64,000 nucleotides of DNA from Rhizomucor pusillus (taxonomy: Eukaryota; Mucoromycota; Mucoromycetes; Mucorales; Lichtheimiaceae). Of this stretch, positions 37,338-57,880 are shown piece by piece; positions within the stretch are counted from its first letter, which is position 1; every line of letters starts with the position of its first letter. The translations under genes were made by a program, and so were the position numbers. Below the pieces are notes generated by a model that was not told where the DNA came from, made no database searches, and worked only from the letters and a program-made list of their open reading frames with translations. The stretch spans positions 1 to 64,000 of the forward strand of contig FWWN02000184.1 of the NCBI GenBank assembly GCA_900175165.2. The letters run 5' to 3'.

Positions 37338-38017
37338 GCATGCATCGGATGAAAAGGATTGCGAAATGTTCTAGGGGGGATTGCAGATATCCTGTTTCGC
37401 TTAATAGATTGGTATATATTCTTGGTGACGACGATGTGCAATTAACTACAACTACACTTCGTTTTTCCAAAAAAGGGATTATCTAAATTTCAGCTATGCA
37501 CCTTTGTCTCAGCTGTATCTAATTCTATCATTCGAAATGGCATATATACACTGCATTGTCATTGGACAAGGAGAAGCTAGCCTTTTGTAACGTATCGAGT
37601 GAAACCGAAGGAATCGTGATGATAGCAATGTGCTCATTGTCTGTACAAGATCATCATCTTGAATACATAGAACTAAATGCGTCCTATTTTGCGATAGCAG
37701 CAGCACTTTGTATGTTTACACCAAGAATTGCTATGTATTCCATCTTTAAATAATATAAGTACGCCGTTCGCTACAGTGATTACACTGGGCGTCTTAGAGG
37801 ACGGGTTATTACAATGAATTAGTCCTCCTGTTTGATAAGCATGCCGCATAGACATATGCATTTCGGCTTCTGACTGTCGAGAACAAACACCTGCGCGATC
37901 ACGCCGGTCGAAGCTCCGGGGGGAACTCGTGACCTTTCCATATAGAGATTCCAGCATAACAGCGGGAAGAGTGTTGAGCAATGTTGTTGCACGTTTCTTG
38001 TATTTCGACTGTTGTGG

Positions 38018-39363
38018 ATGGGCCAGGCTACATCAACGTCGATCCCACGAAAATCCAACGTGTTTTACAATTATGACGATTTCTCCAACAGGTTCACAAA
38101 GGTGACCTTATCTACCTTGGCTGTTCCTATGGTGGTCATCGCTTTCCCGCTGCTGAATGCTTATACTTTCACGGAAGAAGAGCTGACCGGTGTAAAAGTG
38201 ATGGATGGAATGATTGGAGGACTCCTGGGCATAATCGGATGTGGGTTTTCTTTTGTTTTTCTTTTGTGTTTATACATGTTATATACGGGGATGATATTAC
38301 TAACTTTTAAAACATCAGGGCCACTTGCACCGTTCCTAGCTTGCTGGGGTATGTTTGAGGTAATCTTCAAGGACGGGCCGCCAGAACCGTTGCCGATACC
38401 GCCCGAGCTCAAGAAGAAGGCCAAGCGAGAGATCGGATTGAATTGCGAGGATTTTTACAACGTCGCTGTTGTTGGTGTGTCAGGAACCGGTAAAGTAGGT
38501 TGTTGCGCTGCTAGACCGATGAGGAGAAGGAGATGGTGGATGTGGTGTATATTTTGCATGTGAGCTCAAACGCACCGTGCAACATTTCCTTAGAGTTCGA
38601 TGATCAATGGGATCATGGGATATCACGACAAAGACGCACGGGCCGCGGTCACGGGAGAAGTCGAAGCGACAACCAAGCCGAAAGGATACCAGCATCCAGA
38701 TCTCCGGACAATGATTGTGTGGGATATGCCAGGTGCAGGGACCATGAATCATCCGGCAGAAACTTATTTTGATGATAACTTTTTATACGCATTCGATACC
38801 CTCGTTATTGTTACTGCGGAGCGGCTGCAAGAGATCGATATTAACCTAGCCAAAAGAGCAAATGAACATCGGATACCGGTACTTTTCGTCCGCAACAAGG
38901 CTGACCAGGTACGTCGTGGAGTGCGTTCGCATCAACATCCTGTTACTCATCTGTTGAAGGCTGTGGATGCAAAGATGAGACGGTATACTGGAAAAAGCCA
39001 AGATCAGACGTATATATGGTCCTTGGCTGTTGGGGAGCTCGTTAACGAGGTACGTATGCCATCGATGCATAAGAGACCTTGGATACGTCATATATAACTG
39101 CTAATATTTTCTTGATGTAGGTTAAACAATCCATTTACAAGCAGCTCAAGGCTAATCACCTCAGTACAAAACGTCTTTTCATTGTATCCGCTTGGAACTT
39201 GCAAGAATTTGTATCTGTATTAAGCAATCAGGAAATGGAGCAGAGTTTACGTCTGATAGATGAGCAGCGCTTTCTAAGAAGACTCATTGAAGGAGTGCTA
39301 GTAAAACGTAAATATCGTGAAAAGCTAAAGAAAAAGAGTCAAAAGCAAAAGCTTGAAACATAG
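38018..39363 (+). CDS. IRG-family (immunity-related, IIGP-type) GTPase, membrane-anchored
   Basis: IRG proteins are dynamin-like GTPases; in mammals interferon induces them to attack pathogen vacuoles. Five exons, 38018-38240, 38319-38494, 38594-38908, 38960-39049 and 39121-39363, give 348 residues. G1 is GVSGTGKS (127-134), G3 WDMPGAGT (176-183) and G4 RNKAD (233-237). Between them, ETYFDDNFLYAFDTLVIV and RLQEIDINLAKRA align with the IRG pattern. The lysine and serine of G1 are present (GKS type). The start MGQATST is a classic N-myristoylation signal. Two hydrophobic stretches follow (about 30-50 and 65-85), so the protein should sit on a membrane. It is shorter than the mouse enzymes (about 410), with a basic C-terminus (KRKYREKLKKKSQKQK). 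Physiological role unknown. Confidence 0.88.
38241..38318 (+). other. Stop-free 78-nt intron of the IRG gene
   Basis: GT donor, a perfect TACTAAC branch site near 38299 and an AG acceptor mark this as an intron. Its length is a multiple of three and it has no in-frame stop. If retained it would encode about 26 mostly hydrophobic residues (FVFLLCLYMLYTGMILL). Confidence 0.8.
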
Positions 39364-39544: not shown

Positions 39545-41753
39545 TCAATCTTTAATGCCGTGAAAACCAAGCTTCTTGAGTCGAACGAGGGTGCCCGGTT
39601 TGAGCTTTTCAGCATGCGACGCAATAACGCTTAAATCTCGATCGTCTTCTGTCTGCAAGGCATCCTTCACCTTCAAAATATTCTCACTTTATATGTTCTT
39701 GTTAGCAGGTGACTGAAATACCAGTCGGTGTATATAGAGACATACCAATCTATATTGTCCAGAAACTGTATTAAGGCGAACGATCGCCGTACAAGGAATC
39801 TTCGCCACTGGCGTACATATGCTTCTCTTAACCGCGAGGGAAGTCTTCTGGTTTCATCTAACAGTTTCTGAACTAGAGGAGCAACGCAGTCGGCTTTCTG
39901 GAGAACCGGTTTCCTATCCAGAAGTGACAACTGAGCTTTCAAGAGCAGCAGCAATTCCTCAGTTCCTTCCTTGGATCTTACTTCCACTCGGTAGATCGCG
40001 CAGCCGGTGCCGACGATAGTTCTGAAGGCCGAAGATGACTATTAAATTCATCTTCTAGCCGAGCAGAGTACCATTCTCGGTACTCTTTCTGTAACTGCTG
40101 ATAGGCTGGATTGAGGGGCGTTCGCTTCACTGTCAAATGTCGCATATCTACGATGGTTGTTGGTAAAGTTGACTCGAGCACTGCAGTCTCCCACTTTTTG
40201 GTATCGAGGTCCTGGATGAATAGACCTTGAAGGTACAAATCTGGCATGTATTTTGTGTTTTTCCGTGCGTGGCTCGATAAGCTATGTTCTTTGGATGACA
40301 AGAATAAGCCCAATGCATTGATCATCTATTTCCCGTTCATAAAATCGGTTAGGTAAAGATTATACAAGGTGCAAAGCTAGGTTACGCTTTACCATATTCA
40401 TCGCCGTCAAATTGCTGCCAAGGACTACGGTACAGCACTGAGTCTGCAAATGTGAAGTCACTACTCTAAAGTGCATCGTAGTTAGCAGTGAATCGCAGTT
40501 TCCATTTGCTTTGTGCTAACTGTACCTTGCAAAAAAGGGTGAATCAAAAAGCTGCCGAGATTCTTGATCAAAAATTGTACATGTGCTCTGGAGAGTTCAA
40601 CTTAGATAACCATTTACCCTTTTTTCCAAAGTTATGCATGATAATTACTTTTGTATATTCTAACGGTAAAGAAACGGAGTCAAGCTTCATTATAGATCTA
40701 ATAAACGGTGCAATGTGGCAATCTCCAAAATATTGCAAAGCATTTTGCCAGCACTGGGACGCTGTTAATCACTCAAAACATGCAACGGGAGCTTGGTGTT
40801 AAGTACGTACCACCGAGTGTCGTCTGGACCAGCTACGCAAGCGTACCAACTTTTCAACAAGCTCCCTTGGAACACGATCTCGGAGCACCTGCAGATACGG
40901 CGAGAAATTCCTCAAATATCGATCCGGGAGGACAAACACCAGGGCTGACAACAGCGCTCGATCGTTGTACAGGAACGCTAGGCATACAATAGCCTGACGA
41001 TGAAGTACCACCCATTTCACCTCAGTGTTCTTGATACTTCGGTCCATCTCGCCATTCAATATCTGCTGAGCTATCAATCGTTGCATATACTTTTCGTTCA
41101 AGGCATCATCTTTGGATGTCCAGACCTTTTCCACCTTGGGTCCCTCAACATTGGACCACTGCAGCAGCGAAACACCTGAGAAAAAGCAAGACTCAAATAG
41201 TTTATCCAACGTTTCTGGTTCTTCACTGTCGGATTTGCTGGCACTTGGGTTATTTGGTGATTCTATACTTTATCCAATTAATCTCACTTGCAAATCTTTG
41301 TAACCTATTTTCCTTCTTACCGTTGGCAGCATCTTGCAATGCCGCGATGGCTTCAGAGGATATCCTGTCTACAGGCGGTGGTAACTGCTCAAACATGATA
41401 GTTTCTGTGGTGGTCGAAGGTGTCACAACACCGGCGGAACTCAAGGGCGAGCCTAGGGGTGAAGTCGAGGACGGCTGGAAGACGGGCGACTTCATAAAGT
41501 GATGGTGCTGGTGCCTAGCTGGCTTACCGCCACTGCTGCGGCCTGCCTCTTCGTGCGGCTGCGAGTTGCCACCGTTGCTTTCCGTCTTCTTGTCGCGCTC
41601 GCCGGTGTCTAAACTAGATCTCGCTCCTCCTCCCTCATTGGGTCTTCCCACCACAGCTGTGGTTGTTATTTCTACCGGCTGCACCGCTGTTGTTGTTATC
41701 GTGGTAGTCGACTTTGTTACATGCGATCGGGGTGAGTCTGTGGGTCGCTTCAT
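39545..41753 (-). CDS. C9orf72 homologue (DENN-type guanine exchange/GAP-complex protein)
   Basis: C9orf72 is a DENN protein that works with SMCR8 and WDR41 as a GAP for small GTPases in lysosome and autophagy control. Eight exons, 41753-41321, 41262-40811, 40753-40649, 40587-40526, 40465-40393, 40325-39982, 39913-39746 and 39686-39545, give 592 residues in phase throughout. Aligning blocks: LLQWSNVEGPKVEKVW (human FAYWDNILGPRVRHIW), QILNGEM, APFIRSIMKL, SHLQTQCCTVVLGS (SHLQTCGCSVVVGS), INALGLFL, DLYLQGLF, SFALIQFLDNID and HAEKLKPG (LAEKIKPG). The first 145 residues are a low-complexity Ser/Thr/Pro extension. An ATG at 41807 would add 18 residues. The start lies 125 bp after the oligoribonuclease stop. 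Confidence 0.9.
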
Positions 41754-41878: not shown

Positions 41879-42741
41879 TTACTGCTGATGAGAGATGAAT
41901 ACATGATGACGATAGTATTTCAGTTCAGCAATACTTTCTTTAATGTCATCCAATGCACGGTGACAGTTCTTTTTGACGACACACTTTGCGATATCGGGAT
42001 ACCATCGTCGAGTCAGTTCTTTCACCGTGCTCACATCTAAGTCATATCAGAGTCACCAAACTAGTCCATGGTTTATTAATACTGAGTAACCCACTTACCG
42101 ACGATGCGGTAGTGAAGGTAATCCACGAGTTCCGGCATCTCTTTTTCAAGAAAACGTTTATCAGCATGCACCGAGTTTCCAGCGAGAGGAGCTTCGCCCT
42201 TTTCAATGTGAGCTTTTAGGAACTCCAGTATCTGTTTCTTTGCATCTTCTGTGGAGACTTTGGAATCAAGAACAGCCTGTGTCAGCCCGGACTAGAAAGG
42301 ACATGGTTTTAAATTCATCGTGAACGCTAGTTGATGTAGAAGATCGATAACTCACAGCACCGTGGTGCTCTTTGCACCAGTCTACTCTCGATATATCAAC
42401 ATCAAGCATTCACTCATTTGTAGTCCTTTCTTTCTCCTTCGTTTTACCGTTCATATTATCCATGACTTCCTTTGGTTGATGAATAACCAACTCTGGACCC
42501 TTTTTTCAATTCTCCCACAGTCAGAGCTTTATTTTGCCTTGCCTTAAGTCCCAATAGTCATTCACCTCTGCGACTATGTTGAGATCGCCGTCAGTGATCA
42601 AGACAGCAATCTCGATCAAGTGATCCTTGCTAATATCGAGACCTGTCATCTTGATCCTTGTCAAACCCAGTGCATCAGTTGTGCATAGCAGAGACTTTTA
42701 CTTACCTCGCAGTCGATCCAGACTAGTGGGTTCTTGATCAT
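41879..42741 (-). CDS. Oligoribonuclease (REXO2/Orn, DEDDh exonuclease)
   Basis: This 3'-5' exoribonuclease clears very short RNAs (nanoRNA), often in mitochondria. The ATG at 42741 opens [12 protein letters not shown], and the next exon gives [24 protein letters not shown]; together they supply the first two acidic metal ligands (D-x-E). Further exons carry [36 protein letters not shown] (third acid), [18 protein letters not shown] and [18 protein letters not shown] (His and final Asp). The DEDDh set is complete. The product is about 190 residues with no presequence in this model, so it may be the cytosolic form or have an unseen upstream start. It is tandem with the C9orf72 homologue. Confidence 0.93.
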
Positions 42742-42871
42742 TTTACGGTCAAGTCGAAGGGAGGGGAAGGCGAACTCGAATTAAATGTTAGAGACGCGCG
42801 CGGGTCGTTCCTGTAAAACGCAGCAGAAATTTTGACAGCAGGTTCCTCGATCACACTGCTGTCCACTCCCA

Positions 42872-44843
42872 ATGTCCACTACTTTCACGGACGACCCACC
42901 TGAACATGACGAAAATCCAATACCCAAGAGTGATTCAGATAATGAGTTTGAAGACTTCAGACCGCCACCAAATGTCGGCTTAAAACGAAGGAGGACGGAA
43001 GAAGAAGAAGAGGAGGAGCGCGCTACAGAATGCCCAATATGCTTGTGTGTCTGCGCGAGCAGTGGACCGCATAGGATCGTATCTCTAAAGTGTGGACACT
43101 TGTTGGGAGAAAGGCATGCAAAAAAGTCCTTTAAAATGTAAACGTTCAGCGCTGCTAACAGAGAAACGAATCGATTTACACAGCTGCCTTTTGCAATGGT
43201 TTAAAGAGAAAAAATCCAAAACCGTAACCTGCCCAAAGTGCAAGTAAGCACGATGTATTATCCTCTCAAAGTTGGCTGAACATTTAAACAATTGAATTTT
43301 AGCGATACGGTGCGAAAGCAGGATATCCGTCCTCTATATACTTCACATGTGATCGCTCAAGACACCTCGCTGATAGAAGATCTGAAGCGACAAATAGAGG
43401 ATCTGAAAAGCGAAAACCTTAAATTACTTAAAGACTATAAAAGCACTGAAATGGCGTTAAACATGAGTAAACGGTTTTTGCAAGAAGTGTCGGAAGAAAA
43501 TAAGCAGCTAGTGAACCAGTAAGTCCTGACATCCCAGCTTTTTGTAAATCAGTATTTAATGACGATTGTAATCCATAGGCTGAAAGCGGCTGGTTTGTAC
43601 AAGACGCTCGATTCTGAAGCTGCTGAGAAAAAAGAATTCAAGGAGGCGTTCACTTTGAGGTTGCCCAATGGGGTAAATATCTTGAAGTTTGCAAAGGATT
43701 ATCGCAACTGACTTGATTTGTAGCTGAAAGGCCGGAACATTGCTGTTAACGAGCGCGAAGAGATGTTGCTGCTTTCGGCAGGAAGTGCATCGCATGGACA
43801 TGGTTTGCAACGGCTAAGTCTGCGCGACTTTGAGACATCAGACTTTTTCAAGATCCACGAGCATCAAATCCGCGATGTTAAGGTTTCAATGCATAACAGT
43901 GAGCTTGTGCTGTCGACAAGCTTCGACAAAACGCTTTGTCTTAGCTCCATTACAGATAAATACATTTTCCAAACGTGAGTAAATATTTTGTAACCTCCCA
44001 GCGAGATCACTTGTACTGAGTAAATGTATTATAGATATATTCTGGAACGACCAGGCTGGTCCTGTTCGTTTGATCCGCGTAATCCGAGTCTCCTACATTG
44101 CGGTCAGGCTAACAATACCATATGCATTTTCGACATTCGAAATACCAACACTCATGTGCAATGCTTGCAAGCAAAAGATACCCGGTTTCCTATACATTCT
44201 ATGCAGATATTTTACACAGCATCAGGCCAGAAGGAGATTTTATACTCGACGCCCGTCGGGTCCTATGTCTGGAAACTCATGGACGGTCAGGAGCCAGAAC
44301 TGAGGCCCCTGCCGCAGCTGGAAAATGGTAAGGCAGTTAATATTTGAGAAGACGTTTTTTGCTCAAGTACTGACGACTGCCTAGGTTTTAAACCATATTC
44401 ATTAATGTACGATGAACAGTCAAACTCGTTGCTGATATCATCGAGAAGATCGGAAATTGGGACATATCCTGCATCCACCAAACATAGTATCTATCACATA
44501 AATGAGCTTGATTACGATAGACCTTGCTGGTCTTTCGAGAACTGCAATCCACAAATACCGCTCGCGAGAACACATCTCTACCGTGACGATGATGACATCG
44601 TCGTATGCTTTTCTGACGACAAGGACAAAAAGGTTACTGTACACTGCTCCAATCCCGGAAATCGGTGAGACTGACTATAAAGTGTTTGAAAATAATTAGA
44701 TAAACCTCAGGAACGCCAATGGAAACATCCAATCCATAGATGTCGAAGATTCAATTCTAGATATCAAAACCGCAAGAATTGGAAGCATTACCTATCTAGC
44801 GGGACTCAGCGAGTCACGATTTTACCTTTATCAACACAAGTAA
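42872..44843 (+). CDS. RFWD3-like E3 ubiquitin ligase (RING, coiled coil, WD40)
   Basis: RFWD3 ubiquitylates RPA and RAD51 at stalled forks and crosslinks. The gene begins MSTTFTDDPPEHDEN, has an acidic stretch (EEEEEEER), then the RING: CPICLC, RIVSLKCGHLLG and, after a 46-nt intron (43138-43183), CLLQWFKEKK and CPKC. The DTVRKQDIRPLY link and a coiled coil (LIEDLKRQIEDLKSEN) match the family, as do the WD40 repeats (SASHGHGLQRLSLRDF, HQIRDVKVSMHNS, GWSCSFDPRNPSLLHCG, FLYLYQHK-like C-end). Eight or so exons in all. In the RING, the position of the cysteine after CGHLxG is a histidine in this reading, or the spacing is longer than usual. Start and stop are clear. Confidence 0.87.
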
Positions 44844-49307: not shown

Positions 49308-50343
49308 CTAACGAAATTCGAAACTGCCAAAACAGCGATCTTTTGTCTGATGCCGTAGCTTGAGTTTTTGGTACCTACTAGTTCTATAAGTATCCCATGT
49401 CCCTTTTCTCTCCCTCCCCTTCTTGGACCATTGAAGCTCATGCTTACCATTCGAGGTGTTCATGAAAATAGTAAAATCCAGATATCTCGCCTGTTGATCT
49501 TTGGTAGCAGATGTAGTAGAATCCGGCAAAGCTTGCTCCTTGGACATTGATCAGGTGATGATCCGGTACCAGGAAATGTTCTTTCCATCGCATGTACACG
49601 AAATCCTCTTCCAGCGAGTTGTATACAAATCCGTCCTCGTGAAATTTGTCGGCGTAGGGTTTGAAGGAGGGAAATCGTTTCTGCACTTTAAGTCAGCGGC
49701 GGAATCACGGGATAACGTAGCAGCAGCCAACATACCCAGTGAACTGCATCGATCTGCCGTTGAGCCTGCCACTTTCGAGTCAAGAATGAGTACTTCGGTC
49801 CAATTATTTCACCTTGAAAGAATGTCTAGAAATCAGATCAGCCTCTTTCTTTTCTTCTATTGCAACGATATAAATCCACCGCAAGGTTACCGTAAGTTCC
49901 GGATACCGAACCGTCAAGCCTTTGATGTTAAGATAGCCAGTCAGCGTCCCCTCTCGAAGATCAACGTGCTGAAAGAGAAGTGTATATGTGAGACAAGACT
50001 GTTGCAACAGTAAAAAGCGATTAGATTATTCTAATCTAACCTGTATTTCAACGGTAACTTGGTAACTTTTCGCCTCGCACTCTTGGCTCCCTACAAACTT
50101 GGAGCCAGGATATAGTGCTCCGAGACGAGTGTTTGGCAGTCGACGATCGGAAATGTCGACCCAAGCCTCGTCTTGCGAACGACTGCTCAGTGATGGGCGC
50201 TGCTGTTTTTGTTGTGTGATAGCTTGTTGGGTATCTTGGTTGAGCTGCAGGGTATTGTGTGTCCGGCTCTTGTCCAGGATCTGCTTGGAACCTTTGCTGT
50301 TGCTGGCAGTGGCGGGTAAGGTTGTAGACGATGCACCTGGCAT
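49308..50343 (-). CDS. GID4: GID4/Vid24, substrate receptor of the GID (CTLH) ubiquitin ligase
   Basis: Gid4 recognises Pro/N-degrons and recruits gluconeogenic enzymes to the GID E3 ligase during glucose recovery. Five exons, 50343-50041, 49968-49891, 49825-49736, 49680-49448 and 49374-49308, give 256 residues with phases in agreement. The beta-barrel signatures are present: [95 protein letters not shown] and the terminal SFEFR (human YEFR). The first 70 residues are Gln/Ser-rich and less conserved. The reading frame is open upstream of the ATG into the MED6 3' region; see findings. Confidence 0.94.
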
Positions 50344-50704
50344 TGCGGGAAAGAAAAAGCGTGCACTCTTTGCGTGTGTATGTGCGTGTGTGTCCTGGGA
50401 ACTTAAAACGTATACATCCCAGTTTAGCTGCATGAACCAATGACAGCTGCTCAGACGTTTCTCCCATTTACAAAAATCGATTTTTCCATTTAATATTATC
50501 ATTATTTTATTTTGCCTTCTTTTTTCGCTTTGTACTGCTGCTATCCTCGGTCTTTTTGCGTTGTCGCTTGCCTGTTGTTTCGTCTGTAATTGGGTATCGT
50601 TAGTACTGCGAGAAAACAAGCTTATCAAACCTTAAATCACCTCTTTGTTGTGCCGCCTATCAAGTGGTACAAACACGTCAATCGAGGGTATACTCTCCTA
50701 TCTC

Positions 50705-51739
50705 TTACACTGAGTTTCTTACCATTGCAGCGGCCGCGACGCTTAAGCTTGAATCAGCGATGCCTTTTCCTGTTCCTCCTCCCGCGGCAGTTGCTGCTGC
50801 TGTATCAGTCTGTGAGAGTGCCTGCCGACTTTGAGCAATGCGCATTGCGGAAGTCTCGATGGCTCTATCCATCAGCAACCGAAACTCTTGGTTCTCTCGC
50901 GCTCGCAAAGTGCCTGGTTGAGCTAAGCAATTTACCATTAGCTGACAGTCTACGATAAGCTGACGTGATGTTTTTCAACCTTTGGTTTGCTCTGCTGATG
51001 TCGGTTTTGATGATTTCCAGCTGTATCCTTTGGCTGGATGGAAATCCATCCATTTTTGCGCATCTTTGAAAGCTCCGTTTACGTGGAATAAACTTGTCAG
51101 CTAGCATTAGAAAATATAAGTCCCCGTCCAGCAATCACTTAAAAATATTATTGGAACGTACAAGTCGGTTAGCGATGACCGAGTAAATACTTGGTGATTG
51201 GTAGACGTTGGCGCCCATGATATAGTACGTTGCAATTGGATTTACTGATCTCGGTGTTAGATCACATTCGCTTTTCAGTCGGTTGTACTCACCATCGTCT
51301 GGTGCGGGACCTCGCCGATATCTTTTCTGGATAACCCACACCGGCGGATGCTCGTGTATGACAGCGAATTCAATGCCTTTCAGGTTCCTAGACACGCAAA
51401 CAGTCGGTTACAATATCTTTATACTTTGCAAAAAGCGAACAAGCGCAGCACCTTAGGGCTTCTTGGGTGGCTTCATAGGTTCTTCGTAAATCATTGTATT
51501 GAGTTTGCATATACACTATCTGGTTGTTGCACTGGCGATCCCAGAAAGGAGACATTGAAAAGTAGTCCATGACCATCTGTTGATTCTGAAATCCTCCTAC
51601 ACGCTGTTATTCATGTTGGAAGGCTTAATAACTCTGTTCATTCACTCTCTCCGTGTAAACAATGTTGGCTCAATCGTACTTCTAACCAAGCTGTATCCCT
51701 CCATTCAACACTCGTGAGATCTTCAGTAGCAATATTCAT
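50705..51739 (-). CDS. MED6: MED6, Mediator head-module subunit
   Basis: Med6 is a core Mediator head subunit linking activators to RNA polymerase II. The ATG at 51739 gives MNIATEDLTSVEWRDTAW; splicing continues with MVMDYFSMSPFWDRQCNNQ, YEATQEALR, NLKGIEFAVIHEHPPVWVIQ, LTPRSVNPIATYYIMGANVY, SPSIYSVIANRL, FKDAQKWMDFHPAKGYSW and FRLLMDRAIET. These match DYFS-x-S-x-FYDR-x-CNNE, PLADYYIIAGVIYQAP and HPSKGYWW of the family. The C-terminus is uncertain. I give the stop at 50705; alternatively a donor after the Ala-rich block (AAAAM) splices across a TACTAAC site near 50610 to a basic exon (KRQRKK, KRKKKAK) ending at 50507, though the phase does not fit. Confidence 0.88.
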
Positions 51740-52374
51740 AGTAGGGCGAAAAATGATGTAAATGCGGACGCGGCTTCGGATTCGCCCTTTGAAACTAAGA
51801 AAGCATAATCACACAGTTGTGCGAGGTAAATGAATACACCAACCCTTTACTTTATTCATCTGAACATCGACATGGCGTTATCTCCTTCCAGTTCAGTGGT
51901 ATCCGGATCTTAAAAATAGACATCAAAATCTTAACAGTTCATTTATCCCTCAAACAACAATCCCTCTGACGGCAACAAACTGTAAAGTCAATGATGGAGC
52001 CCCTGGGAAACAAGGATTGTCGCACTATACTGTACATGTCTTGATGGCATTTATGCAAGATGCGACTCCTTTTTGCCACGGGATCTCAGAGAAGAAAGTA
52101 CTAATTATGCAACATTTGATTTTCGGGAAAACAAGGTCTTTTTACTTGTAAAAGTATTAATGTTACAAAATTGCGTTGTTGTCGAGTGGGTGGGTGTAAT
52201 GCCATGCTGTCAAAAATGGGTGAGGACAAAGGACAGGGGATTAAAGAAAAAAGAGGTGCATCTGCTTTAGGAACCAGTACATGTTTTGATGTTAAGAGAA
52301 TACTAAAACTGAGTCATGCGAGTTGCTGTTGTAATAACACAATTTGGTACAGATACACGAACGCATCCTCGTTT
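51740..52374. other. Intergenic region, MED6 to VTC4
   Basis: About 630 bases between the MED6 start and the VTC4 stop. AT-rich, no supported exon; presumably the MED6 promoter and the VTC4 3' UTR. Confidence 0.5.
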
Positions 52375-54824
52375 TTACTTGAAGCGTAGATAGAAATTGA
52401 TCTAAAGGAAAGTAGTGTGTGAATTAAGGTTCTCGACAAGGGGTCTTTTTCTTTCATAAACTTACGATGAGAGCAACCACAAGCAATGTGCAGAGCACTG
52501 CAGGACCCCATAGATCGTCGTAGCGACCGTCGATGCGGCGGTTGATCATCCTGGTAAGCGCACACGCAAATGTTTAGTGTTTCCTATTATTTTGTTGCAA
52601 GAAGAATGGCGATTTTCCTTACCATGCACGTTTTTCAAAACGATACAAGGCGTAGATAGCAACAACGGCGGATATCGCGATAAAGACACCGCCTATAATG
52701 CGAGCGGTTTGGTCACCAAAGTTCAGCAGACTTAGGGCGACTGTTAAAAGGAGGGCGCAGAATTGCAACCAAGAGATAAAAGTACGCTCGTTGGCAAAAA
52801 ACACTTTAGGTTCGACTCGGACCTTGACTCGTCTTTTGCCAGCAGGCTCGTCTTCGGCAACAGGGATACCGAGTGGGGTATTGTTGGCGGATTTTTCATT
52901 ATTATTATTCTTACCACCACGCATGCGTGCAATCCATTTGTTATCAAGGAATGGCTGGAGTGGACTGTTTGTCTTTGGAGGAGTGGGTTCGATGCTTTTG
53001 GGTGGGGTGGGCGGTTGCTCAACAACAGGAACAGGCACTGCAGAGTACTCCCTTTTGCTCGGAGTGCTGTAGCGCCAGCTCTCCTTTGCCGAGGCTGCGG
53101 CGGCTGTTGCTTTTTGGGAGTCAAATTCTACATCGGTTATGCTTGGATTATTATTATCCTGGCTGCTGCTGACAACAGCTTGTTGATTGGCTCGCTCGCG
53201 CTCTTCGATCATTGCACGACGGTAGCGACCATCAATGAGTGGTTTGAAACTCCGTGAACGCGTGAGGCCAATATTCTCGGCCCGAGGTTTCCGGATATCG
53301 ACATTGAGTTCGGATAGCCACCAGGGCAGAAGCGGGAGCCGCTCGCGATAAAAATGGCAAGCGCCATGCAGGTACTTTGAGAATCGCGGCACTTCGTGAA
53401 CCAAATGACTCTCCACGAGTGACGTCAACCAGGCAGGCGGTTCCTGGCCGAGGTGAGTCTGCAGTTTTGTTTCGAGAACAGCGTAGGGAAAGCGCAGAAT
53501 ATCGGCGGACTTGACATAATTGAATGGAAAGTCAATGCCGATATCGTTGCGGCGCCAATTGCTGGGAGGCTGGCGTCGGATTTGGCCATCCAAGTGGTCT
53601 TCTCTGATAAAAGTAAGGTCAGTGTCAAGTGAGATGCGAAGACGCTGGTCACCGGGCAGCTGGAAAGCCGTGCGATTGTAGAAAACACGAAGCATGGGCT
53701 CCAACTGCTTCTCTCTGAACGATGTCTGTATGCCTTGAGCGATAAAGTGCACGTTATCGACAGTTGGCGCATCAACACCTTTTGCACGATATTCATTCGC
53801 AATGGTAGCAGCGGTGTAAGTGCCGTCTACAAAATTATTGACCCTGTTCTCGTCAATTCGGAAACGATCCTTGACGGAAGTGCCATCAAGCCAGGGTGCA
53901 TGATGCGTCTTGCGTTCAATAAAGATGTTTGGGCTGGAAACGGGACCATACCTAAAATAGCGACCATTAAAAAATATATTGCTCAGCAACAAGAAAAAAG
54001 AGATTGTCAAGATGCTTCTGTTTTCTATAAAGGCATTACCATCGAAATCGAATGGCTTCTGCGCCTTCATCCCGCTGCAACCGACCAGTGTAGAGATCGT
54101 AGTTTGGATTGTCAAAGTATATGCTCGAGATTGCGGAATCGGAAGGCTCATATTTTTTATCTTTGTTGAAGATGAGGACAGGCAAATGTAACATGATGAT
54201 AGCCTTGACTTCGGTGATATTGTCAGGATGGATCCAGTACTTTGCAGTTGCTCGTTCGAATGCATTTTGATCGCCGCCTGCCGCTGAATTTCCAGTCGAT
54301 TGTTTGCCCCTGTTTCGGCAAATGTCATGCAGCGCAGAGATGTAAATAATGGCGACATCGAAACGTTGCTTATCTAGAGGCTTGTCTCGCAACTTTTTCA
54401 CATAGTCCTGCTTCAGATTAAGGCCTGTCCATTTATCGTGCTTTTTGAGAATCTTTTGGATGGCTGTAAAGTTAACGCGGGTGAATTTCGAAAGGTCATT
54501 CACGTCAAAAAGGATCTCGGTCAGGGCCTCGTCCATGATGCTGTAGTTGGCGTCGGAGGCCATATTGGGGTTCTTTTGCAGAGTCTGGATGGTCCGTTCA
54601 CAGTAGAGAATACGTGCATCAATTTCAGAGAGCTTGGCATTGACAAAGTCGTAGACTTTGGTCAATTCATTGTCGAGCAATTGAACAAAGTCCGTCTCGT
54701 CACGGTCGTTCCAAGGATGGTCCAGCTGTCGGGACTTGAGCTCTTGCTTGAGGACATCGTAGGCAATGTAAGAGAGTCGCCACGGTGCAAATATGTTTTG
54801 CTGGAGCTCAAGGCCGTATTTCAT
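52375..54824 (-). CDS. VTC4: VTC4-like vacuolar polyphosphate polymerase (SPX-VTC-DUF202)
   Basis: Vtc4 is the catalytic subunit that makes polyphosphate from ATP and moves it into the vacuole, gated by inositol pyrophosphates. Four exons, 54824-54040, 53951-52623, 52550-52466 and 52401-52375, give 741 residues (yeast 721). The SPX domain occupies about 1-150 (MKYGLELQ start; lysine cluster [12 protein letters not shown]). The tunnel domain follows: [78 protein letters not shown] and [12 protein letters not shown]. These Arg, Lys and Glu residues fit an active polymerase rather than Vtc2/3. After a disordered linker, [20 protein letters not shown] leads into three membrane helices. The last exon is nine codons including the stop. 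Confidence 0.95.
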
Positions 54825-57287
54825 TGAAAACTAGGTGGGGAAGAGGAGGAGGGAAAAAATTGCAAGCGAAAGATGGCAAAGGAAGGAAAAATAGAAAAGA
54901 AATTGCAGAGACGAATATAAAGAGGAGATGGGGGGACAGCAAGGGGGTCCCACTGCTGCAATTGGGCACAAAAGCGAGGAGGAGAAAAAAAAAGACGATG
55001 TCGGAAAAGGGGAAGGCGTGCAAGGCAATGACTCTGATGTTTGTGTACGCTGCCGGTGATGCCGCTGTTGCTTGCTACTGTCTTAATTCTCAGGCGCTCG
55101 GCCAAGGGTTCTCCTGACACTTTACACATCAATCTGGTCTCCATTAAATCCATTGAATGATCCAACGGCATGTCTCTTGTTGATCACATTAATCTTCTTT
55201 CTTCAGGGCAGTTCGATCTTTATTTTTGTCTGCATTGTAATGATAATTTTTCCCCAGGGAACACCTAGTGGAACCCATTTTTTTGCGCGCATTGCTTTGT
55301 ACGACTGGTATAACGCCAGATCTATATTCGAATTACCCAGTTTGTCTCAGCAGCTTAGTACGCTGCAATCTTGCCCGCCCATTTAGCTGCGCTGCTTGGC
55401 ACCGACTTGGCATCAAAGTAATGAGTCAGCAACGAATAATTCGCTTCAGCTTGTCAAAGGGAAATGCTTCTGCACAGCGGCAATCACCGTCCTAACTATG
55501 TTTAGATATTTTCTTGTTTTATGCGAGCCGTCGGACAACGGAGGATGCACGAAAAACTTGTACACAGCTAATGGGATATCCCTGGGAATGTCCGGCCGGC
55601 TATTGGTTTGAACGCTGTTGCATGGCGAATCTTGATTTCGTCAGTGTAAATGTGACGCGTATGTATGTGCATGCACTTTTGATGTGCCTTCTTTTAGAAA
55701 CAACTACAGCGTGGCTGAAAAGGTCACGAGACCCGCATGCACAGAAGTATCTGTTGTTTACTTGTTCCGAAGAAGCGCCATTGTGGCCTTCTGCGAAGCC
55801 TCAGTCTTTCCACACAGTATCAGGCGAGACCACATGTCGTCTGGTCGGCCAATAATCTAGCTCGGATCTACATACTTCCATTCCGCGCAGTGTCCTAACA
55901 GGATGGTAACTGTGTATATGTGGGGTGGCAGGGGCATCATCCCAACTCCCTCCTCCTCCGCTCACACCATCGTGACAGAATTCAGCGTGATGCTTCACGT
56001 GCTGCAAGCGAGTGCCACCCAGAAAGAATGATCTGGACAAGCTCAGCATCCAAATTTGACACGACGATGCTGTTCCCAGACCAACTTGTCGTCGTCCTTT
56101 TCATTTAGAATACCCGGGTTCTACTTGGCGTCCACGGAAAGTGTATACGACTGCACAGGGCAAGGCGCGTCACAAGGTTCCACGCACTCGGATATCCTTG
56201 CTTTTCGTTATTGACAACAACAACAACAATGATACATTGTAATACTCGGTGTTTGTATTGGTCGTCGTGCTGTTTCCGGCATCCCCATTACTATTACCGC
56301 CCCGCTTTCGGCAAAAAAATCGTTTTCGGGTGACACGTTTTACCGCAAACTCATCATTTTTCTAAAAAAGTTCCCTCAAAATAGCAATTATGTGCTCACA
56401 TCATCATCCTTGCTGTTCTGTATCTCTCCCATGGCATCTTTGTCTCAGGTCATGGAATGTTCGACAATAGAAAGACTGGATTTAGACCTGCTAAGTAACA
56501 ACATTCCTCTTGCATTTGCGAAATTAGCAATTGCGGCATTTTTTTCTTCTTTCTTTCAATTGACAAAGGGGGAGCTGGGGCCTTCGATCTGACCAACATA
56601 CCCTAAGAATGCTATGCATTACATAGCCTCATACATGTATGCAAGAACGGCACCATTGGCATTTCTTTGCTAATAATAGTCTGCGAGAAAATCAGCAGCT
56701 TGTAATTACATGGGAAGTTTATTTTGTGGCACTCTGTTTTTAGGTTGATCATTGCGGACGGGCTCGAATCGTACTCTCGATCGCTGCATAGCTCAGACGC
56801 ACCAGTGATCCAAGAGATTACAAACAAAGCAATGAACCTGCGACCGCAGAGTAATTGTTTTGAAGGATATCTGCACAGCTCAGTTGCGTCTCAAGTAGAT
56901 AGACTCGTCTCAATCCATTCATTTTCGCGCTTCCTCTGGTTGCGCACACAAATAAACGAAATGAACGGATGAGTTTTCTTCGTGTGACAGACTCATCGTC
57001 TCCGGTGCCATTTGTCAAAAAAAGAGCTTCCCTGTGATACGCATTAATACATCTGTGTGTGAGACCGATCCAGTTTGCATGACCCTGATGAAGCGTTAAT
57101 ATAGAACTTGTTCACACGCTAAATAGAATGCTAAGTGTTATTCGAGCCCTTAGCGACAGGGACAAGTAACTACATTCTTTCTACAGCAGTAAAAATAGGA
57201 TAATATGCTCACTGGCTTGCGAGGATTAGAAGAAATTGATTAGTCAGAGGCATATGTAAGCTTTATAACATAAAAGAAATGACGAAG
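54825..57287. other. Long region without supported genes
   Basis: About 2.5 kb. The first 200 bases are purine-rich on the plus strand and probably the VTC4 5' leader and promoter. The remainder has only short open frames without family resemblance or convincing splice signals. No tRNA, transposon terminal repeat or array was noticed. Confidence 0.5.
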
Positions 57288-57880
57288 TTAAATTTCAAAG
57301 ACAGCAGTACAATCAAGAGCAAATACAATGCACCAGAAAGAAACGAAGGGAAGATATCGAAGAAACAAAAGACTTTCAGTACATTGTTTGATGTATCCAA
57401 CTGAACAACCATACATATTACTTACGCAAAAAGCATTCCCGAGTCCACGGGGACCTCCCACGCACCTTAGATATAATGATGTAATAGTATCTTTGTCATA
57501 TACAAGGACAGTAGGAAGAAATGGGGTTGATTCAAGAAATCAGTGCTTACGCCCGAAGGCGGCCTGTGGTGAAAGAGCTGCTCCTTTCGCACGAAATGAT
57601 ACATGCCGGGCTAAAAGAGTCCAACTGCTTAGAACTGAATATTCGATATTGGGCATTGGATCTTGAAGCAACTCATCGTCGATAATAAGCAAAGGTGATG
57701 TTAAGAGCAAAAATACGTTAAGCAAATGCACCAGGGTCAGGACAGAGGCTACTTCTGAGACAGCCAAATCAAGTACTGTGAGTGCCAGTGATTTCAATAA
57801 GCAAAAGTATAACAAGCTTACCAGGATGCAACAAAAACCGAAGCAGAGCCAAACGACGACAAACACGAATGCTTCATCTT
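57288..57880 (-). CDS. Candidate multi-exon membrane protein, unrecognised (5' end unresolved)
   Basis: Three strongly hydrophobic segments can be joined in phase on the minus strand: FVFVVVWLCFGFCCILVSLL and VLTLVHLLNVFLLLTSPLLI in the first exon, then a small exon (AWEVPVDSGMLFA, about 57430-57470), then LLFLRYLPFVSFWCIVFAL ending at a stop at 57288. Between the second and third helices lies a hydrophilic, protein-like stretch (DDELLQDPMPNIEYSV, FRAKGAALSPQAAFG). Donors are GTAAGC and GTAAGT. No ATG is in frame upstream, so the first exon is missing, perhaps in 57.9-58.4 kb. I do not recognise the family, and this may be a chance or decayed gene. Confidence 0.35.

Follow-up and report, generated by a model that had tools for sequence, protein, structure and literature searches.

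A likely C9orf72 orthologue in the mould Rhizomucor pusillus, and an SMCR8 gene with the catalytic arginine in the same genome

Does an eight-exon gene of the mould Rhizomucor pusillus, located on the minus strand at 39545..41753 of a 64,000-nucleotide stretch of DNA (assembly GCA_900175165.2, contig FWWN02000184.1, positions 1 to 64,000; hereafter, the window), encode C9orf72 and, if so, which partner would the protein work with? C9orf72 underlies a common hereditary form of amyotrophic lateral sclerosis, and the normal role of its product is disputed, the competing assignments being ARF GTPase-activating protein (GAP), Rab GAP and Rab guanine nucleotide exchange factor (GEF). The gene is reported to be absent from most fungi and from S. 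cerevisiae (PMC3570213, PMC5822839). We consider it likely that the window gene is the C9orf72 orthologue of this mucoralean fungus, acquired by vertical descent, and that its product would be one half of an ARF-type GAP whose other half is SMCR8. C9orf72 itself is a known kind of gene; what this analysis adds is an SMCR8 with the catalytic arginine in the same fungal genome.

The gene codes for 592 amino acids followed by a stop, and an independent rebuild reproduced exactly the eight exons, the length and the end coordinates proposed in the first-pass annotation; the peptides cited there are also found in the rebuilt protein. Exon 1 (41321..41753; 144 codons plus one base) encodes an N-terminal extension with motifs shared among Mucorales, and exon 2 (40811..41262) encodes the end of this extension and the longin domain, including LLQWSNVEGPKVEKVW, the LNGE block and the equivalent of human Trp33. 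These are followed by the linker and the start of the DENN domain in exon 3 (40649..40753; PFIRSIMKLDSVSLP), exon 4 (40526..40587; FDQESRQLFDSPFFA), further DENN segments in exon 5 (40393..40465; SHLQTQCCTVVLGS) and exon 6 (39982..40325; QGLF and LPTT blocks), the dDENN helices in exon 7 (39746..39913), and the C-terminus (HAEKLKPG) with the TGA stop in exon 8 (39545..39686). The seven introns are, 5' to 3', 58, 57, 61, 60, 67, 68, and 59 nucleotides long; all have GT-AG borders, and the frame is unbroken. The frame of exon 3 was set by the aligned relatives, which have the same PF..SIM...SVSLP stretch; on this alignment, two other models were dropped, one that read exon 3 in another frame with a non-consensus donor (567 amino acids) and one that skipped it (557 amino acids). 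The 567-residue model was the query in the search of PDB sequences and in the C9orf72 homologue search, and also the first row of the alignment of relatives, in which capacity it underlies the profile alignment to human C9orf72.

Several lines of evidence identify the protein as a full-length C9orf72, as the first-pass annotation had proposed. The C9orf72 family, PF15019, is the sole Pfam family matched up to an E-value of 1 (E = 1.5e-40); with a cut-off of 27 bits, its score of 139.8 bits is more than chance. Among PDB sequences, human C9orf72 is likewise the only match up to E = 1 (E = 7.3e-19). The profile alignment spans residues 26-464 of the 481 residues of human C9orf72, so that the longin and DENN domains are collinear with C9orf72 across nearly the entire protein, in the same longin-then-DENN order as in the human structures (PDB 6lt0, 6v4u, 7mge, 7o2w). 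A fold model of a close relative, of modest confidence, matches 6lt0_C over residues 223-586. The next-ranked fold matches are FNIP2 chains, as might be expected if the gene were really an FNIP or a folliculin and its likeness to C9orf72 superficial; families absent from this fold-match listing are not thereby excluded. We regard the chance of such a misassignment as close to negligible, given that the Pfam and PDB sequence searches returned C9orf72 only, with no other DENN family scoring better and no match to the FNIP_N profile up to E = 1, and that FNIP and folliculin exist as separate genes in this genome. A search of the 24.45 Mb assembly with the PF15019 family yielded a single such gene.

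The homologue search, which scored just the candidates sharing most words with the query, produced 17 proteins that, judging by their names, we take to come from 15 Mucorales and two Mortierellaceae-type fungi; the 15 Mucorales matches are 40 to 61 percent identical to the query, some across part of it only. In a tree of the window protein and 16 of the 17 relatives (one partial protein was omitted), the window row is basal to a group consisting of Dichotomocladium, Fennellomyces, Zychaea, Circinella, and Phascolomyces (support 96/100), on a long branch. In both C9orf72 trees, and in the longin tree described below, the program flags long branches (the window row, the SMCR8 gene on contig C326 and the animal sequences), which leaves exact positions unsure. 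The branch of the window protein (0.8 compared to a median of 0.17) is what a decaying, functionless copy might display, but 592 stop-free codons, seven consensus introns and the retention of the invariant blocks make decay very improbable. The proteins of Fennellomyces, Circinella, Mucor, Rhizopus, Absidia, and other Mucorales share the architecture of the window protein and, in most rows, its N-terminal motifs; the window protein does not differ from them in kind and takes an early place in the Circinella/Dichotomocladium group, on its long branch. The novelty implied by the first-pass annotation does not hold: a 2012 report names Rhizopus as an exception carrying C9ORF72 (PMC3521125), and the Fennellomyces and Halteromyces database proteins are already named as C9orf72-like protein family-domain-containing, so the presence of C9orf72 in Mucorales was already known. 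A literature search for C9orf72 together with Rhizopus returned nothing beyond the 2012 report.

The partner gene lies outside the window. The Pfam folliculin profile gave one match in the assembly, the folliculin gene, from which SMCR8 seemed to be absent; this reading was overturned by a search with an animal SMCR8, that of armadillo, which matched contig C326 twice, in collinear order (E = 1.2e-6 and 0.028), and contig C218 once, weakly (E = 0.07). The genome-wide search for SMCR8 suggested in the first-pass annotation thus succeeded. The gene in the 49500-57500 region of C326 was modelled with six exons and a full-length product of 851 amino acids, which matches human SMCR8 among PDB sequences (E = 1.8e-16 and 4.7e-16); the other matches are FAM155A and a DPY30-domain protein only, at E = 0.4 or worse, and there is no folliculin among the matches up to E = 10. 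Homologue search with this protein retrieved 29 fungal proteins and three animal SMCR8s, 32 in all; one of the fungal entries, from Apophysomyces, already bears the name smcr8. A fold model made for SMCR8 of Dichotomocladium (mean pLDDT 59.5) matches human SMCR8 chains first, with folliculin close behind; because these fold matches are too close, the identity was decided by a longin tree. In this 11-row tree, where human folliculin is represented by residues 1-27 and 96-280 only, the C326 protein joins the fungal and animal SMCR8s, and the folliculin of this genome joins human folliculin, with support of 100/100. The fungal SMCR8 on C326 has no family in our local copy of Pfam, and a newer model, PF27109, labels SMCR8 relatives; older annotations would therefore miss fungal SMCR8. 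A literature search for SMCR8 together with Mucorales returned no paper, and none of the papers listed by the wider searches, some of which listed part of their results, describes such an SMCR8 beside folliculin and FNIP in a fungal genome.

The catalytic residue of SMCR8 is conserved. In the human complex, according to a cryo-electron microscopy study, Arg147 of SMCR8 inserts into the ARF1 active site, and the C9orf72 W33G/D34K substitution nearly abolishes GAP activity (PMC8213707). The equivalent of Arg147 is arginine in every one of the 34 SMCR8 sequences aligned, 30 of which come from fungi, the one from this genome included. On the C9orf72 side, the window protein is 24 percent identical to the human one, from which it also differs by the long N-terminal extension; the two share Trp33 and the LNGE, SHLQT, PTT, and AEK.KPG blocks. 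The equivalent of Trp33, a residue at the ARF1 interface of the human complex, is tryptophan in 17 of the 18 fungal rows (the window protein and its 17 relatives), and that of Asp34 is serine in the same 17, the window included, the remaining row having a gap in both cases; at the position of Ile71, 14 rows have Met, two have Val and one has Ile. Asp34 is a binding detail at the ARF face rather than a family-defining residue, and from these substitutions we infer that the contact surface with the ARF-family GTPase is somewhat altered compared to the human complex.

C9orf72 and SMCR8 would pair via their longin and DENN domains, and the heterodimer would serve, on internal membranes, as the GAP of an ARF-family GTPase. 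In this arrangement C9orf72 would hold the GTPase while SMCR8 provides the arginine finger. Rab GEF activity is typical of DENN proteins, and studies of C9orf72 as a GEF exist, judging by their titles (PMC10567733, PMC6195791); nevertheless, that the fungal protein is mainly a Rab exchange factor, with or without SMCR8, appears unlikely to us, given that the arginine finger present in every fungal SMCR8 row is expected for a GAP and that ARF GAP activity is backed by the structural work cited above.

Folliculin and FNIP are encoded separately from the window gene. The only match to the folliculin profile in the assembly is in the 75000-82500 region of contig C22, where a model of 322 residues was obtained (E = 9.4e-42 against human folliculin); an FNIP gene is on contig C200. 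The folliculin model stops after the longin domain and linker, and the DENN part was not found there; the gene that follows, which by eye encodes a dihydrolipoyl dehydrogenase, is so near that there is little room for it. A search with the folliculin C-terminal profile gave zero matches, controls included, and is uninformative. Longin-only folliculin is reported from other fungi (PMC3521125). The yeast Lst4-Lst7 complex (FNIP and folliculin) is likewise a longin-DENN pair, both genes of which this fungus also has, with the folliculin model longin-only; C9orf72 belongs to a different family. A DENN-less folliculin could in principle be the partner of C9orf72 here, in the manner of Lst7 with Lst4; we find this very improbable because SMCR8 is present, folliculin has a partner gene of its own in FNIP, and six of the 17 species on the C9orf72 list recur on the SMCR8 list.

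Since fungal SMCR8 and folliculin each group with their animal counterpart, the duplication that produced them would have occurred before the animal-fungal split. Levine and colleagues place this duplication in an early animal or pre-animal ancestor (PMC3570213); the longin tree supports a folliculin/SMCR8 split that would precede the separation of animals and fungi.

Unlike in the human complex, WDR41 was not recognised in this genome: the WDR41 query gave 16 matches with E ≤ 0.01, none of which extends beyond residues 14-174 of the query, and the four inspected by eye resemble other WD40 proteins, although a WDR41 of divergent sequence might escape such a search. Given this negative result, recruitment to the vacuole might differ from that in animals. 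The candidates for this role would be the conserved motifs of the N-terminal extension. The first-pass annotation described the extension as low-complexity, which is correct in part; it also contains conserved stretches, near the start, middle and end of the part encoded by exon 1, that recur across Mucorales in the alignment. EITTTA is present in 12 of the 18 rows and SEA[IVM][VA]AL in 15; the three rows without the latter are those of the two Mortierellaceae-type fungi and of the partial Zychaea protein. A run of histidines followed by SP occurs in 13 rows, the window excluded, its copy having Met where the pattern calls for I, F, L, or V. Conservation begins close to the start, which supports the ATG at 41753. 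No direct repeats were found in exon 1 and its surroundings. A resemblance between residues 1-26 of human C9orf72 and the extension was dismissed as chance: the score of the window protein was reached by 251 of 1000 shuffles, and the same test with two relatives gave 286 and 451 of 1000. We tentatively suggest, while considering it doubtful, that Mucorales have two distinct complexes, one of folliculin and FNIP and the other a minimal C9orf72-SMCR8 ARF GAP free of WDR41, with conserved N-terminal motifs of fungal C9orf72 replacing WDR41 for vacuole targeting. A mould in which a single C9orf72 gene occurs with an SMCR8 that retains the catalytic arginine, and in which folliculin and FNIP form a pair of their own, possibly without WDR41, could be a simple model of the C9orf72-SMCR8 core complex, one that is open to gene removal.

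Among the neighbouring genes in the window, the start of a reading frame at 42836-43141 (plus strand) encodes an acidic, cysteine-containing stretch (CPICL) that looks RING-like by eye, with no Pfam match. A gene for an IRG/IIGP-type (interferon-inducible) GTPase (37946-39363, plus strand) is arranged tail to tail with that for C9orf72; one piece of it, 38594-39049, matches PF05049 (E = 2.3e-21) and the two flanking pieces have no match. IRG GTPases are known chiefly for their part in the immunity of animals, and a literature search for IRG in Mucoromycota found no paper. About 125 bp upstream of the C9orf72 gene, at 41879-42740 on the minus strand, is an exonuclease gene, one piece of which matches RNase_T (PF00929, E = 3.9e-7), with a second piece below the cut-off; by eye, it is probably an oligoribonuclease.
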